Assembly: GCA_903873655.1 (NCBI GenBank)
Contig: CAIQPH010000042.1
Coordinates: 1 to 50,864 of the forward strand
Length of the DNA: 50,864 bases
From: an uncultured Holophagaceae bacterium
GTDB taxonomy: Bacteria; Acidobacteriota; Holophagae; Holophagales; Holophagaceae
Reading direction: 5' to 3'
The position numbers were made by a program, and so were the translations under genes. The notes beneath the pieces were generated by a model. The model did no database searches and had not been told where the DNA came from. It was given only the letters and a program-made list of their open reading frames with translations. Positions 20,797-42,841 of this stretch are shown here, one piece after another (position 1 is the first letter of the stretch; every line of letters begins with the position of its first letter).

Positions 20797-23700
20797 TCAG
20801 ACCAGAGCCTCCGCCTCGCGCAGATGGACGCTCACCAGCCGGGAGCAGCCGGCCTCCTCCATGGTCACGCCGTAGAGGGTGTCGGCAGCCACCATGGTGG
20901 GCTTCTGGTGGGTGATGACGATGAACTGGGTGTCGGCTTTCATCTTCTGCACCATGGCGGCGAAGCGGCCCACGTTGGCCTCGTCCAGGGGCGCGTCCAC
21001 CTCGTCCAGCACACAGAAGGGGCTGGGCTTGAAGTGGAAGATCGCGAAGAGCAGTGAGATGGCCGTGAGCGCCTTCTCGCCGCCGCTCAGCAGGGTGAGC
21101 GCCTTGGCGGTCTTCCCGGGAGGCTGCGCGGTGATCTCGATGCCGCACTCCAGGAGGTTCCTGGGGTCCTCCAGGCTGAGTTGGGCGCTGCCACCGCCAA
21201 AGGCCTCGCGGAAGACCTCCTGGAACCTGGCGTTCACGAAATCGAAGGCCTCCTGGAACCGTTCTTCGCTGGTGGCATTGATCTCCTGGATGGTGGATTC
21301 AAGGTTGCCGATGGCGGCGGTGACATCGGCCCGCTGTTCAGCCATGAAGGCCATGCGGGCCTCAGCCTCCTCCAGTTCCTGGATGGCAAGGGGATTTACT
21401 CCGCCCAGATCCAGTCGGCGACCCTGCAGTTCATTCAAGCGGGTCTGATGGACCAGTTCACCTTCCTCCCAGGCCTGCCGTTCCTGGTCAGTCAGGCCAA
21501 CCATGAAGGCCGGCACTTCCAGTCCCAGTGCCAGCTCGACTTCCTTGGCCAGGGCCTCCTGGCTTCCCTGGACCTGGGCGCCATGGATCAACACCTCCTG
21601 GTGCTGGGCCCGGGCATTCTCCAGCGCCTCCTGGAAATCGCGGGCCATCCGCTCCTGGACCCGCAGGGCCTCCTGGTCGAGTTCCAGCTTGGGCTGGGCT
21701 TCCCGGGCCTGAGCCTGCACCCCTTCCCGCTCCTGCAGCAGCACCTGGGTTTCCGCATCCAGTTCGGCGAGACGGCGGAGGCAGCCATCCCTGCGCTCCA
21801 GCAAGTCCTGGGCTTCCGCGTCCAGGCGCTGGCGTTCGGCTTCAAGATCGAAGCGGCCCCGCTGGGCAAGCTGCAGGTGGCGTTCATGCCCATCCCGCTC
21901 GGCCCAGGAGGCGTCCCGGCCCCGGGCGGCATCCAGCCTCTGCTCGCGGCATTCGTCGAGGCGCTGCCTGGCCTCCCGCACCCTGACCTCCGCCACGTGG
22001 ATGGACTCATCCAGCGCGGCATCACCAGTTTCTTCCGGATGCTCATCAAGCTCTCGCAGCAGGCCCTGGAGCCGCTTGATCTCCGTCTCGATCTGCTCCC
22101 ATAGGGTATCTGCCCGCTCGCTCGCGGCGCGGATCTCGGCCAACTGCGCCTGCAGCGACAACCGATGGGACTTGAGCGTGTCCGATCTCTGGCGCAGAGT
22201 GCGGAGATCCTCATCGATCTCCAGAGATCGCTCCCGGGCGGCGCGGGCATCATCTCCCCCTCCGCCCCGCAGGGCTTCCAGCTCTTCCAGGCGATCCAGA
22301 AGGGCCTCCCGCGTGGCGCGGGCCTCTTCCTGTTCGGCCCGCAGCTTGATGGGCGAGGCGGCGGGAGCAGAGATGCCTAGCTGCAGCGGACCATAGGGTA
22401 GGCGGATGTAGGTTGGAGACATGAAGGCCAGGTCCGGGTGCAGCAGGACGAGGTCCGGCAGGACCTCATCGGAGCAGCGGAAAGCCCTGTCCACCAGGGC
22501 CTTCAGGGGCCGCTCAGAACCGCTCCAGCGCACGTGCTCCCGGAGCGGCTCGCAACCTTCCGGAACGGGTGGTGGTGGCAGTTCGTGCCCCAGGGCCAGC
22601 AGGAGGTGCCCTGGGGCTCCTGAAGCCAGCTGGGCGGTGTTCGCATCGACCGAAAGCGACTGCAGCCAAACGCCGAACAGGCGCTCCAGATCCGGCCGCA
22701 GGGTCTCATCGACCGTCAGCAGCTCCACGAACGTGGGCGGCCTCCTCCCCTGCTCGCGCAACCAGGTGAGGCCCTTCCTAAGCTCCTCGTCCCCGAAACT
22801 CTGCGCGAGCAGATCCGAGATCTGCCGCAGTCGCCGCTCGGCGGCATCGAGCTCAGCTCCGGCACGGTGGTGGTTCTGGGCCAGGGTCCGCTGGGTCTCC
22901 TCCAGGGTCTCCGCACGGCGACGCTGGTCGAAGGCCGCCTCCTCGGCCTGTTCCAACTGGGCCAGAAGACCCTCCAGTTCCTGACCCGCCTTTTCAGCCT
23001 CTGCCTGGAGGCTCTCCAGGCGCGGCGCCCGGATGGCTTCGTCATGGTTCAGGGCATCCAGCCGCCCTTCGAGCTGGGCAATCTGGCTCTGGAATCCCAG
23101 GCGCTGCTTCTGACGGGCCAGGGCCTCCTTCTGGCTGTCGACCTTGCGCTCGCGCAGGGCGTGGAACTCAGCTTCCTCATGGCGAAGAGCGCCCAGGGCC
23201 AGCGCCACGGTCTCCTCGGCTGTGGCCAGCGCGGCTTCTCGGCCTTCGAGGCGCTCGGAGGCCTCCCTGAATAAGGCTTCCAGGGCCGTGAACGAGTCCC
23301 CTGACTGAGACAGCCGTTCAGTCAGGGCTTTTGCGCGTTCCTGTAGACGGCTCCGCTGCCCCTCGGCTTCATCCCGGCGTTCCTCCTGGAAGCCGCGCTC
23401 CTGGTCCGCGAGTTGGAGGCGCTGGTCCAGGGCCAGGATGGCGGCGGCGCGCCTGGCCTGGCTCTGCTGCTGCTCATACACGGAAAGGCGGAGGGATTCC
23501 ACTTCAGAGGCCTTCTCAGAGACCTGGGCCGTCAGTTCTGCCACCCGGCGCTCGATCCGATCCACCTGGTCGAGGATGCGCAGCTTGGCGGCTTCCAGCT
23601 CCATGGCCTTCCCAGCGAGCAGGATCCGCTGAGTGGCCTTGATCTCTGTATCCAGTTCCTTCGCCTTCCGGGCCCGCACAGCCTGGCGGCGGAGCGAATC

Positions 23701-27351: not shown

Positions 27352-27368
27352 TCCGAAGGATGCCCCCG

Positions 27369-29711
27369 ATGCCGATTCCCTCCTTCGCCTTGTTCCGCAA
27401 TTCCGTGCTGCTCGCCGCGTCCCTCCTGCTGGCCGTCGGCTGCACCCTCCACCGGGCCAACCAGGCCTTTGACGAAGGCCGCTACGATGATGCGGTCGCC
27501 GAATATCGCAATGTCCTCCGGAGCGACCCCACCAACCCGAAGGCCAGGATCGGGCTCAAGCGCGCCGCCCAGCAGGCTGCGGAATTCCACATGTCCCTCG
27601 CCCGCAAGGCTGAGCTGCGGGGTTATTCGGATACGGTATTGGCGGAGCTTCGCAAGGCGCTGGTGCTGGATCCCGACAATCAGATCGCTGGGGACTGGCT
27701 CATCCGGCTGGAGCAGAAGGCGGCCCGGGACAAGGCCGAGGCTGATGCCGTGGACGATCTTGAAGCCATGAAGGCGAAAGCCGACTCCATGAATGCCGTG
27801 CAGCTCAACCCCCGCTCTCTGGATGGCATCGACCTGAACTTCAGCCGGAAGACGAGCCTGCGGGAGATCTTCGCGACGCTCAGCAAGGCCTCCGGCGTGA
27901 ACATCATCGTGCACACGTCCTTCCAGGATCAGAGCATCTCCATCGATCTGCGGGGCCTGCCCTTCCAGCGGGTCCTGGATACGCTGATGCTCCAGAACGA
28001 CCTGTTCTACAAGGTCATGGACAAGAACACCCTCATGGTCTTCAAGGCCACGCCTCAGAACCGGGAGCAGTTCGAGAACATCATCATCAAGACCTACTAC
28101 CTGTCCAACGCGGATCCCAATGACCTCAGATCCACGCTCACAACCATCAATCCGCAGCTAAAGGTCTTCACGGACAAGCGGATCAATGCCCTCATTGTGA
28201 AGGCCAAGCCCCTGGATCTGACCATCGTGGATCAGGTCATCCGTTCCCTGGACAAGGCCAAGGCCGAGGTCATGATCTACCTCGAACTCATGGAGGTGAC
28301 CGAAAGCAGCCTGGAAACCATGGGCCTGCTGCCGGTAATGAATGCCACGGACTCCTCCGGCACCTACCGGCTGGGTGCCACCACTGTGAATAATTCTTCG
28401 GGCCTGAACACCAATTCTGGCGGGTTCACCGGCATCCACACCGCCGACATCCGGATGCTCTTCCCGAATCTCGCCCTCGATTTCCTCAAGGGCAACGGCG
28501 ACGCCCGCCTGGTGGCCAGCCCCAACGTGCGGGTGCTCTCGGGCGAGATCGGCGAAGTGAATATCGGCTCGAAGGTTTCCACCACTCAGAGTCAGCTCTC
28601 CCTGCCCACCACCGGAGGCTCCGCTGCAACCGCAGCTTCGTCTCTGCTGGGAGGCGTTGGGCAGACCTCATTCTCCTACGAGGACATCGGCGTCAAAATC
28701 AAGGTCGAGCCACGCGTGAACAACAATGGCGAGATCACTCTGAAGATCGAGAGTGACGTCACGACGCTGATCTCAGGGTCCACGCCTGGTCGTCCCGACA
28801 TCGGCAAGCGCAGCATCAAGACCATCGCCAGGCTACGCGACGGCGAGACTGCCATCTTCGGCGGACTCTTGAAGGATGAAGAGCAGAAGAGCCTCCAGGG
28901 CATCTGGGGCCTGGCCGATATCCCTCTGATTGGTGGTCTCCTGAGCAATCACAACAACAAGACGGCCAAGACTGACGTGCTCCTCACGATCCGGGCCGTG
29001 CTCGTGCGCAAGCCAGTCATGACCGAGCAGGACATGGCGCCTTTCAATCCGGAAGACGCCACCGCAAAAGCCGGCCCCTTCGCTGCAGTGCCCCCAAAGA
29101 AGGTCCCTGCTTCCGCACCTGTGACCAGCGCCCCCACACCAAGCCCGCTTCCAGTTCCGGTTCCGGCCCCGGTAGTGCCGCCCGCCCTGCCCAAGCCAGT
29201 CGCCCCCTCCCCTGCCAAAGCCACCCCTGACCAGCCGGCCAACCCGCCGCCCACCGCCCCGTCCGCCGCCATCCAGGAACAGAAGCCCGCAGCCCCCAGC
29301 AATCAGCCCCCCGCACCCTCGGACCTGGTGATCTTCATGTCGCCGGTGGCTTCGGAAATCAAGATCGGGGAGAGTGCCAAAATCACGCTCTCCGTGAGCG
29401 GTGGCCAGGGACTTACCGCCGGAACCCTGGAACTGCGGCTGCCACCAGGACTCCGCCTCCAGAGCGTCACTCCAGGGGAATTCATTGCCGGCGAGAGTGG
29501 CGGCATCCAGCAGTTTCCGGGCGAGAATGGCCTGCTGAAACTGGTCTTCACCCGCAGTTCCACCGGCACCGATGCCGGTCCCTTCGCCACCCTGGTGTTC
29601 GAGGGACTCAGCGCAGGCAATGCCCCGGTGGTCATCCAGAGCGGGCAGTTCCTCGTCGGCACCTCGCCCATTTCCGGGCGCTGGTCCAACGCCCTGGTGT
29701 CGGTGCAGTGA
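27369..29711 (+). CDS. Secretin (PilQ/GspD-like) with N-terminal TPRs and C-terminal cohesin-like domain
   Basis: A 780-residue outer-membrane secretin lipoprotein. The signal peptide ends in L-L-A-V-G-C (Cys25). Two to three TPR units follow (about 28-115), then STN and N domains (about 150-330: S-L-R-E-I-F-A-T-L-S-K-A-S-G-V-N-I-I-V) and the secretin core (about 330-560: V-A-S-P-N-V-R-V-L-S-G-E, then G-L-A-D-I-P-L-I-G-G-L-L). A Pro/Ala-rich linker (about 570-650) leads to a cohesin-like beta domain (652-780). The ATG at 27369 has AAGGA eight bases upstream; the ATG at 27360 has no room for a ribosome site. It forms the outer-membrane gate for the machine encoded by this operon. The cohesin end is unlike classical GspD or PilQ. 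Confidence 0.88.
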   Translation: MPIPSFALFRNSVLLAASLLLAVGCTLHRANQAFDEGRYDDAVAEYRNVLRSDPTNPKARIGLKRAAQQAAEFHMSLARKAELRGYSDTVLAELRKALVLDPDNQIAGDWLIRLEQKAARDKAEADAVDDLEAMKAKADSMNAVQLNPRSLDGIDLNFSRKTSLREIFATLSKASGVNIIVHTSFQDQSISIDLRGLPFQRVLDTLMLQNDLFYKVMDKNTLMVFKATPQNREQFENIIIKTYYLSNADPNDLRSTLTTINPQLKVFTDKRINALIVKAKPLDLTIVDQVIRSLDKAKAEVMIYLELMEVTESSLETMGLLPVMNATDSSGTYRLGATTVNNSSGLNTNSGGFTGIHTADIRMLFPNLALDFLKGNGDARLVASPNVRVLSGEIGEVNIGSKVSTTQSQLSLPTTGGSAATAASSLLGGVGQTSFSYEDIGVKIKVEPRVNNNGEITLKIESDVTTLISGSTPGRPDIGKRSIKTIARLRDGETAIFGGLLKDEEQKSLQGIWGLADIPLIGGLLSNHNNKTAKTDVLLTIRAVLVRKPVMTEQDMAPFNPEDATAKAGPFAAVPPKKVPASAPVTSAPTPSPLPVPVPAPVVPPALPKPVAPSPAKATPDQPANPPPTAPSAAIQEQKPAAPSNQPPAPSDLVIFMSPVASEIKIGESAKITLSVSGGQGLTAGTLELRLPPGLRLQSVTPGEFIAGESGGIQQFPGENGLLKLVFTRSSTGTDAGPFATLVFEGLSAGNAPVVIQSGQFLVGTSPISGRWSNALVSVQ

Positions 29712-29717
29712 GCCATC

Positions 29718-29988
29718 CGAGGGTGTCTGCAAATTCGCACGAGCCGCGCTGGGAGCGCCGGGCGAGCATGGCGAGGACAGGTCCCGCTGGCATGGTGGTT
29801 CCATGTTGAGGGCCTTGGACGACGTCAGGCGAAGCCCGTCGCCCCGGCCCGAAGGGACGGGGGCCGGCCGCGCGCCCAGCGGCGTCACCGCGCTTGAACG
29901 ATGTCACCGCATCGCCCTGCGCGCACTTCCTTGCTGGATCACGCGGCCGGCCCCCGTCGCGACTCGCGGGAATTTGCAGACACCCTCG
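29718..29988. mobile_element. 271-bp element with 31-bp imperfect terminal inverted repeats (MITE- or REP-like)
   Basis: The left end (29718-29748) and right end (29958-29988) are inverted copies differing at 3 of 31 positions; the outer 19 bases, CGAGGGTGTCTGCAAATTC, are identical. Inside is a second perfect 17-bp inverted pair, 29856-29872 and 29942-29958 (GACGGGGGCCGGCCGCG). No transposase frame fits in the interior. I see no clear target duplication at the flanks. It starts six bases after the secretin stop and ends inside the first codons of the pseudopilin. A non-autonomous transposable element or an extragenic palindromic repeat fits best. Confidence 0.6.
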
Positions 29989-30438
29989 CAGCGCGGATTC
30001 ACGCTGCTCGAGCTGGTCGTCACGGCCACCGTCCTGCTGATTCTCGCCTCCGTGACGGTGCCCTTGGCGCGAAATGGTCTGAAGCGTCAGCAGGAGCTGG
30101 AGCTGAGGCGTTCCCTCCGCGAAATGCGGTTGGCCATCGATGATTACAAGAAACAGGCCGAACAGCAGAAGATCAAGGCGCCGCCCCCCGAGGCCAATTT
30201 CTATCCTGAAAGCCTCGAGATCCTGGTGGAAGGCGTCCCCGCCGCAAAATCGCTCACCCGCAAGGTTCGCTTCCTCCGCCGCATCCCGATTGATCCCCTC
30301 ACCGGCAAGGCGGAATGGGGCCTCCGCAACACCAGTGATGACGCCAACAGCACCAGCTGGGGCGGCGGCCATGTCTACGATGTCTACAGCCTCTCCCATG
30401 GGACCGGCATGAACGGCATCCCCTACAGCCAGTGGTGA
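29974..30438 (+). CDS. GspG-like type II pseudopilin
   Basis: A 154-residue prepilin-type protein if the TTG start is used. The short leader M-Q-T-P-S-Q-R-G precedes the prepilin peptidase site G|F-T-L-L-E-L-V-V, with the conserved Glu at mature position 5, and a hydrophobic helix. The C-terminal part has I-P-I-D-P-L-T-G-K and a D-V-Y-S-L-S-H-G-T-G-M-N-G-I-P-Y-S-Q-W tail, as in GspG major pseudopilins. An upstream ATG (29803) would give an implausibly long leader. The TTG and the first five codons lie inside the right end of the 271-bp inverted-repeat element. It would be the main pseudopilin of the machine encoded by the genes before it. Confidence 0.82.
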   Translation: MQTPSQRGFTLLELVVTATVLLILASVTVPLARNGLKRQQELELRRSLREMRLAIDDYKKQAEQQKIKAPPPEANFYPESLEILVEGVPAAKSLTRKVRFLRRIPIDPLTGKAEWGLRNTSDDANSTSWGGGHVYDVYSLSHGTGMNGIPYSQW

Positions 30439-30532: not shown

Positions 30533-30618
30533 GCGGATATGGCGGAATTGGTAGACGCGCTAGTTTCAGGTACTAGTGTTCACAAGACGTGGGGGTTCGA
30601 GTCCCTCTATCCGCACCA
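30533..30618 (+). tRNA. tRNA-Leu (anticodon CAG)
   Basis: A class II tRNA with all arms visible. The acceptor GCGGATA pairs with TATCCGC, followed by A and an encoded CCA. The anticodon stem CTAGT/ACTAG encloses TTCAGGT with CAG at 30567-30569. A long variable arm follows, and the T arm contains GGTTCGAGTCC. CAG reads the leucine codon CTG, which is very common in this genome. Confidence 0.95.
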
Positions 30619-41869: not shown

Positions 41870-42841
41870 ATGATTCTCGTATTCTGTGAACTGAAGGAAG
41901 GCCTGCTCCGCAAGCCCAGCGCCGAGGCGCTCAGCGAAGGCCGCCGCCTGGCGGATGCTTCAGGCAAGCGACTCGGCGCCCTCTTTGCCGGCGCCTCCTG
42001 CGCCGGAGCAGCCGAAGCCGCCAAATACGGCGCCGACGTGATCCTCACGGCCGAGGCCCCCACCCTGGCCTCCTATTCCAGCGATGCCTATGCTGCTGTC
42101 CTCGCGGATGCCGTCAAGGCCAAGGGTGCCACCGTGCTATTGGCCGCCGCCACCGCCGTCGGGAAGGATGTGGCCCCGCGCGCCGCCGCCCGCCTGGGCG
42201 CCGGGTACGCTTCTGATGTGACCGGACTTTCGATGGTAGACGGCAAACTTCAGGCGGTGCGCCCCGTCTATGCCGGCAAGGCCTTCGCCACCACCACCTT
42301 TGCCACTGCGGTCCAGGTCGCCACCACCCGCCCGAACGTGTTCCCCGCCGCCGAGAAATCCGGCGCGGGGGCCGTGGAATCCCTTCCTGCGCCTTCCGGT
42401 GATTTCAAGTCCGTGGTGAAAGAGATCCTCGCCAAGGCCAGCGGGAAGGTGGACTTGAGCGAGGCCAACATCATCGTGAGCGGCGGACGTGGCATGAAGG
42501 ACGGCGCCAATTTCAAGATCCTCGAGGAGCTGGCCGACGCCATTGGCGGCGTCGTGGGTGCCTCCCGGGCGGCCGTGGATGCGGGGTGGGGTCTGCCCCA
42601 CAGCATGCAGGTGGGGCAGACCGGTAAGGTCGTGAGCCCCACCCTCTACATCGCCTGCGGCATCAGCGGCGCCATCCAGCACATTGCCGGCATGAGCGGC
42701 TCGAAGTTCATCGTCGCCATCAACAAGGACTCGGAAGCCCCCATCTTCAAGCTGGCCAGCTATGGCATCGTCGGTGACCTGTTCGAGGTGGTTCCCGAAC
42801 TCACCAAAGCGGCCAAGGCCATGGGCATCGGCCAGGCCTGA
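41870..42841 (+). CDS. etfA: Electron transfer flavoprotein subunit alpha
   Basis: A 323-residue EtfA. The C-terminal FAD domain shows [43 protein letters not shown] and [10 protein letters not shown], the family signature. It is the FAD-bearing partner of EtfB. A ribosome site AAAGGA precedes the ATG. It ends [11 protein letters not shown]; a near-copy of this ending lies about 70 bases downstream, out in the spacer. Confidence 0.95.

Follow-up and report, generated by a model that had tools for sequence, protein, structure and literature searches.

Type II MITEs, of which QMITE2, the Correia elements and Chunjie are examples, are elements of less than 500 bp with terminal inverted repeats that are shared with an insertion sequence (IS), no transposase, and an interior unrelated to that of the IS; they form stable stem-loop structures, and some copies have target duplications (PMC10969869). 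The usual view is that MITEs are the decayed offspring of a single IS and depend on that IS. A 271-bp inverted-repeat element (positions 29718-29988) lies between a secretin and a pseudopilin gene in the 50,864 nucleotides of DNA from an uncultured Holophagaceae bacterium analysed here, a stretch that is called the window in what follows. It is very probably a non-autonomous type II MITE and belongs to a large acidobacterial family of modular build, in which a conserved two-hairpin interior lies between ends derived from ISs, these being the outer 18-20 bp of the 31-bp repeats; we infer that the elements are mobilised in trans and that their ends are copied.

The initial annotation gave the element 31-bp ends that match at 28 positions, the outer 19 of them identical, and a nested perfect 17-bp pair; direct reading of the arms and of the nested pair confirms the element and its length, and the end-pair score as well as the sequence bears out the ends. 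The imperfect arms extend over 39 nt (29718-29756 and 29950-29988). The outermost C and G of the interval fall at the position of the target duplication, and the mobile unit proper most likely spans 29719-29987 (GAG...CTC). On the plus strand the left terminal inverted repeat (29718-29736; in the unit proper from 29719, GAGGGTGTCTGCAAATTC) equals in its outer 19 bp the right one (29970-29988, minus strand; unit proper to 29987), both being defined by the match of the arms. It is continued by an inner part (29737-29744, plus strand) that, by arm match and fold, pairs imperfectly with the right side. Next comes the first internal hairpin, A (29745-29847), defined by the fold of the window copy and by covariation over 141 copies, and fold and covariation likewise define a small central stem with a spacer of the CCCGAAGGG type (29848-29854, limits approximate) and the second hairpin, B (29855-29959, limits approximate), the base of which is the perfect pair 29856-29872/29942-29958. 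No open reading frame belonging to the element itself is apparent, and the open frames that run through it are expected at such a GC content, in agreement with the earlier reading of it as non-coding. With 271 bp, inverted repeats at its ends (28/31) and no transposase gene, it falls within the size and structure by which MITEs are recognised. A chance origin can be excluded, since either strand folds better than dinucleotide shuffles by about 9-10 s.d. (z -9.4 and -10.6), and since the best terminal-repeat score in 100 random segments is 13, against at least 14.5 for each of the 160 repeat-bearing copies described below. There is no second copy within the window, as had been noted before; only matches of 18-24 bp were found. 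These lie at 23020-23043 (24 bp, 92%) and 42319-42336 (18 bp, 100%), match hairpin parts of other family members, and could be either relics or chance.

The gene upstream of the element (27360-29711, plus strand) encodes a GspD/PilQ-like secretin and the one downstream a GspG-like pilin, with profile scores that for both lie under the curated equivalog cut-offs; for the N-terminal prepilin domain of the pilin, the cut-off is exceeded. The body of the pseudopilin gene (29989-30438, plus strand) is intact, with 81-94% identity to relatives. A tRNA-Leu gene (anticodon CAG) is found just downstream of it, at 30533-30618. In ten named relatives (Geothrix and other Holophagaceae) and throughout the genus the site is uninterrupted, and when the two flanks were joined into a single query, the match was unbroken in nearly every genus genome and split in two in the genome of the window alone. 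In the named relatives, and in the genus genomes readable at the site, the pseudopilin starts with a GTG that overlaps the secretin stop (GTGAGCCGCCAGCGCGGATTC, GTG...MSRQRGFTLLELV). Relatives thus carry the empty site, which proves that the window element is an insertion. It has parted the pseudopilin body from its native start: the window sequence and the relatives place the original GTG at 29708-29710 (plus strand), still overlapping the secretin stop and no longer in frame with the pilin body. Frame comparison points to a TTG within the right repeat (29974-29976, plus strand), in frame with the pseudopilin, as a candidate new start codon; translation from it would yield MQTPSQRGFTLLELV, which is plausible as a prepilin leader. 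Provided that the frame was unbroken before the insertion, comparison with the empty sites suggests CCATCAGCGC as the target and TCA as the duplication, which would now be degenerate, reading TCC on the left (29716-29718, plus strand) and GCA on the right (29988-29990, plus strand).

Copies are abundant outside the window, both in the same genome and in the genus. The host genome, which is 88.7% complete and amounts to 3.47 Mb in 328 contigs, contains four further copies near full length at 87-92% and many partial ones, and the listed coordinates, including those from queries of two other subfamilies, give at least 32 distinct related places, all of these copy numbers being lower bounds. Queries from these two other subfamilies found copies in 41/47 and 38/47 genus genomes, and many of the genomes sampled are MAGs. 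By interior matches 179 distinct places were located, of which 160 have terminal repeats, with a commonest spacing of 270 bp, and the other 19 are nearly all short fragments or cut by contig ends. In a phylum-wide sample, interior matches were found in two other genera of the family and, outside the class, in four genomes that belong to a single family; in one more genome the match to the interior covers just a short stretch. Copies in other genera and in another class of Acidobacteriota keep the three-helix build of about 270 bp and have different ends, for example AGGGCCTATCCGTAAAATAGG. As an illustration, loci L380-L385 (in genomes G180, G155, G188 and G163, of a family outside the class of the window genome) retain the architecture of the element with other ends.

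Departures from the standard length also occur. Longer variants of about 325-413 bp were seen at L069 (G016:C99), L055/L072 (G008:C6), L151 (G045:C1) and L392 (G053:C75), and at least some of them appear to carry an extra hairpin-forming stretch in their central part. At the other extreme, a 49-bp remnant (L117:1137-1185, G011:C63) has its terminal repeats joined and the interior deleted. Single terminal repeats with no good partner within 4 kb are present in the host genome, G000 (L104-L111: C197:5084-, C281:2311+, C287:7183+, C47:12700-, C188:15254-, C202:5917-, C253:6323+ and C268:16758-). About five of these precede a likely start codon by 30-100 bp, and several are variants with a -10-like TAAAAT or TAGAAT; such solitary repeats may be relics that perhaps act as promoters.

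The two ends of one copy resemble each other far more than the ends of different copies do: over the outer 20 positions, agreement is 94% within copies and 34% between them, and the ends fall into 22 clusters at 80% identity. In 45 pairs of copies (19 copies in all) interiors that are at least 92% identical are combined with ends that are at most 60% identical; the interiors are 92-96% identical and the ends only 31-59%, with both ends altered together and the divergence focused on the outer 18-20 bp at both sides. The interior closest to that of the window copy (92%) bears another end subtype, AGAGCGTGTCTTAAAATTC. On the interior tree, CTAGGG ends require at least four changes on starred branches, and GTCCAAGT ends occupy two separate starred clades. 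End types are nevertheless clustered on this tree (31 changes versus 78.5 when shuffled), which means that ends are mostly inherited.

An IS with matching ends, such as a MITE should have, was found in genome G003, where the outer 18 bp of the element are identical to those of the window copy. It encodes an IS5-type transposase with DUF4096 and DDE domains, and it is classed here as an IS5-family element, whether or not it is active; its copy is split by contig ends, its reading frame is broken by a stop, and the opposite end lies on a different contig and reads TTTTGCAGACATCATC followed by TAA. The coding part (L113:5094-6217, G003:C2) has an N-terminal HTH_32/IS630-like portion ahead of the IS5 DUF4096 portion, a combination that struck us as unusual. 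When 18-mers from the MITE ends were compared with 33 IS loci of the genus, there were 27 matches at up to two mismatches, against none for reversed controls; IS5 and IS1182 transposases were confirmed, and matches were accepted as IS ends only after a check of their position. Accepted ends of IS5-type elements are, in addition to the one in G003, which is of the end type of the window copy, CTAGGG ends in G019, G012, G058 and G047 and a AGAGTGCCTAAC end in G048 (L128). For IS1182-type elements they are GGAGCCTGTCCAAGTAA ends in G050 and G053 and a TGAGCCTGTCGCACAACC end in G048 (L342), which has its partner end at 2222-2239. Within the single genome G012, the IS L127 and the MITE L213 have the 18-bp end AGGGTCTGTTTTCAGAGT in common. 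A AGAGCGCC end in G011 is a possible further candidate, and a search for a second end at that locus found none. In G042 (L338) an apparent IS end was rejected, as the match sits inside the transposase ORF, and end matches in L134 and L348 were set aside as unproven or probably due to chance.

What the MITEs and the ISs have in common is limited to the ends (18 bp in the case of the G003 element): the MITE interior is not shared by any of the examined IS loci, and among them no autonomous IS with the same interior was found. Many end variants have no IS partner among the 33 loci. Most copy-rich genomes today have no DDE_Tnp_1 transposase, so that mobilisers seem to come and go, and in the genome of the window IS5-type genes were found only as partial or unmatched ones. 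Targets of the types TNA and CTAG are both known for subgroups of the IS5 family. Among 141 copies, TNA is found at both sides of 33, with an identical middle base in 18 of those, and CTA on the left with TAG on the right flanks 15. Identical 3-bp flanks are found in only 21 of the 141 (shuffled mean 10.7, maximum 22 in 2000), which indicates that many insertions are old or that their boundaries were set wrongly.

A common fold recurs in the 141 copies of 255-285 bp, built from a terminal stem, a small central stem and a pair of hairpins, each about 100 nt long. Compensatory changes are present in the outer stem as well as in both hairpins, the three helices of the element. Over 75 pairs, canonical cells make up 96% in the terminal stem and 97.5% in the hairpins, against 64% and 80% when shuffled, and two or more Watson-Crick types occur at 20/20, 24/29 and 19/26 pairs of the three helices; selection of copies by their terminal repeats biases the terminal stem toward pairing and leaves the hairpins unaffected. 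G.T accounts for 1.9% of cells and A.C for 1.2% across the family, in statistics that ignore relatedness. With the same disregard of relatedness, 77 copies have 133 G.T against 59 A.C, while in the other 64, one large clade, G.T is no commoner than A.C, and over all 141 copies the comparison of G.T with A.C as a test for RNA gave no consistent strand signal. Template switching has been reported to homogenise the arms of inverted repeats (PMC8604942) and to produce multibase compensatory changes (PMC8794818). Because both effects are documented, and because G.T is so rare and in a large part of the family not in excess of A.C, we infer that pairing is maintained at the level of DNA.

The element is present in many copies, inserted and strongly paired, and its ends match those of ISs, but these facts could be accounted for in more than one way. 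The ends could belong to a conventional MITE lineage in which they drift by point mutation and are kept matched by the need to fit a single transposase, without any exchange of ends. This agrees with the clustering of end types on the interior tree and with the many ends that differ by just a few matched substitutions; we consider it rather unlikely in view of the nearly identical interiors with both arms changed, the recurrence of one IS-type end in separate interior clades, and a like compensatory pattern in the interior hairpins, which to our knowledge no transposase needs. The strong fold and the covariation in all helices would also be expected of a mobile structured RNA gene or cis-regulatory RNA, with selection on a transcribed three-way junction and mobility as an incidental property. 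Stable stems are known for MITE transcripts (PMC10969869), and the excess of G.T in the 77 copies leaves room for a role of RNA, but the low share of G.T in the family, its lack of excess in the other 64 copies, the match to IS ends and the target duplications make this explanation improbable. A known RNA family could be rejected, since Rfam 15 has none that matches above its gathering score (the sole match scores 29.5 bits, where the gathering score is 90).

As for the kind of repeat, the initial annotation had left a choice between a MITE and a REP/BIME-type unit. The many copies, the empty sites, the TNA duplications in the family and the IS5-family element with the same outer 18 bp support the former. 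A palindromic unit moved by a RAYT-like enzyme would fit the nested GC-rich palindromes and the copy number; it is very improbable, as REP/BIME units are palindromes of 20-40 bp and the element measures about 270 bp, with 31-bp terminal repeats like the ends of DDE-transposase ISs and with duplications at TNA or CTAG targets. That the sequence, which lies directly at the start of the pilin gene, serves this gene as a conserved leader or regulatory region can practically be dismissed: it is absent here in the relatives examined and present at many unrelated places, and the empty sites rule out a pilin leader.

We therefore return to the type II MITE, which is apparently a modular element that swaps its transposase partner through an exchange of both ends, and the manner in which ends are exchanged and kept alike is probably template switching. 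Under such a mechanism, whichever IS5- or IS1182-type transposase fits the ends would move the element in trans. The hairpins would bring both ends next to each other in a three-way junction, where template switching on DNA could copy one end onto the other, so that the arms stay complementary; once one end had been turned into that of another IS, the other end would follow, and the element would gain a new transposase partner. The window copy has the ends of an IS5-family element, and its own insertion split the pilin body from its start, with the TTG as a possible substitute. More tentatively, and with somewhat less than even confidence, the structured interior may be ancient, occurring in at least two classes of Acidobacteriota, and may parasitise ISs by repeated swaps of both ends, the hairpins copying a new end across so that a single acquisition would suffice for a switch of partner.

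If this is true, an interior that outlives its ends, together with matched end pairs from different IS families, would represent an independent lineage of hyperparasites, and it would explain how non-autonomous elements persist after transposase loss. The family also lends itself naturally to testing whether template switching gives rise to compensatory changes, and it is hence a warning for claims of RNA structure based on covariation alone. In open-licence literature, seen mostly as titles and abstracts, we found no bacterial MITE family described in which a single interior is combined with the ends of different IS families.

Compared with known systems, the present family resembles type II MITEs in its size below 500 bp, IS-shared terminal inverted repeats, lack of a transposase, IS-unrelated interior and stable stem-loop structure, and in having target duplications in some copies (PMC10969869). 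It differs from them in being GC-rich and not AT-rich, in having a conserved interior with variable ends, in that at least two IS families (IS5 and IS1182) give ends to one interior, and in keeping one length and a build of three helices in different classes of the phylum. The IS5 family (NF033580, transpos_IS5_3) shares with it the outer 18 bp of the window copy and the TNA or CTAG targets, and the IS1182 family (NF033551) has ends in L328 (GGAGCCTGTCCAAGTAA) from which those of L289 and L288 differ at 1/18 positions; from both families the MITE is set apart by having neither a transposase nor a shared interior, and the window copy does not have ends of the IS1182 type. Within a MITE copy both ends are alike, whereas the two ends of the ISs in G003 and G048 differ at several positions. 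The bcr1 repeat of the Bacillus cereus group is, like the present element, mobile and non-coding with a predicted fold, and by its description it is shorter and has one end type. The Tn3-derived TIMEs are likewise non-autonomous, about 262 bp long and able to form mosaics, but they have conserved 38-bp ends of the Tn3 type and 5-6-bp duplications, so that in TIMEs it is the ends that are the constant part (PMC4133298).
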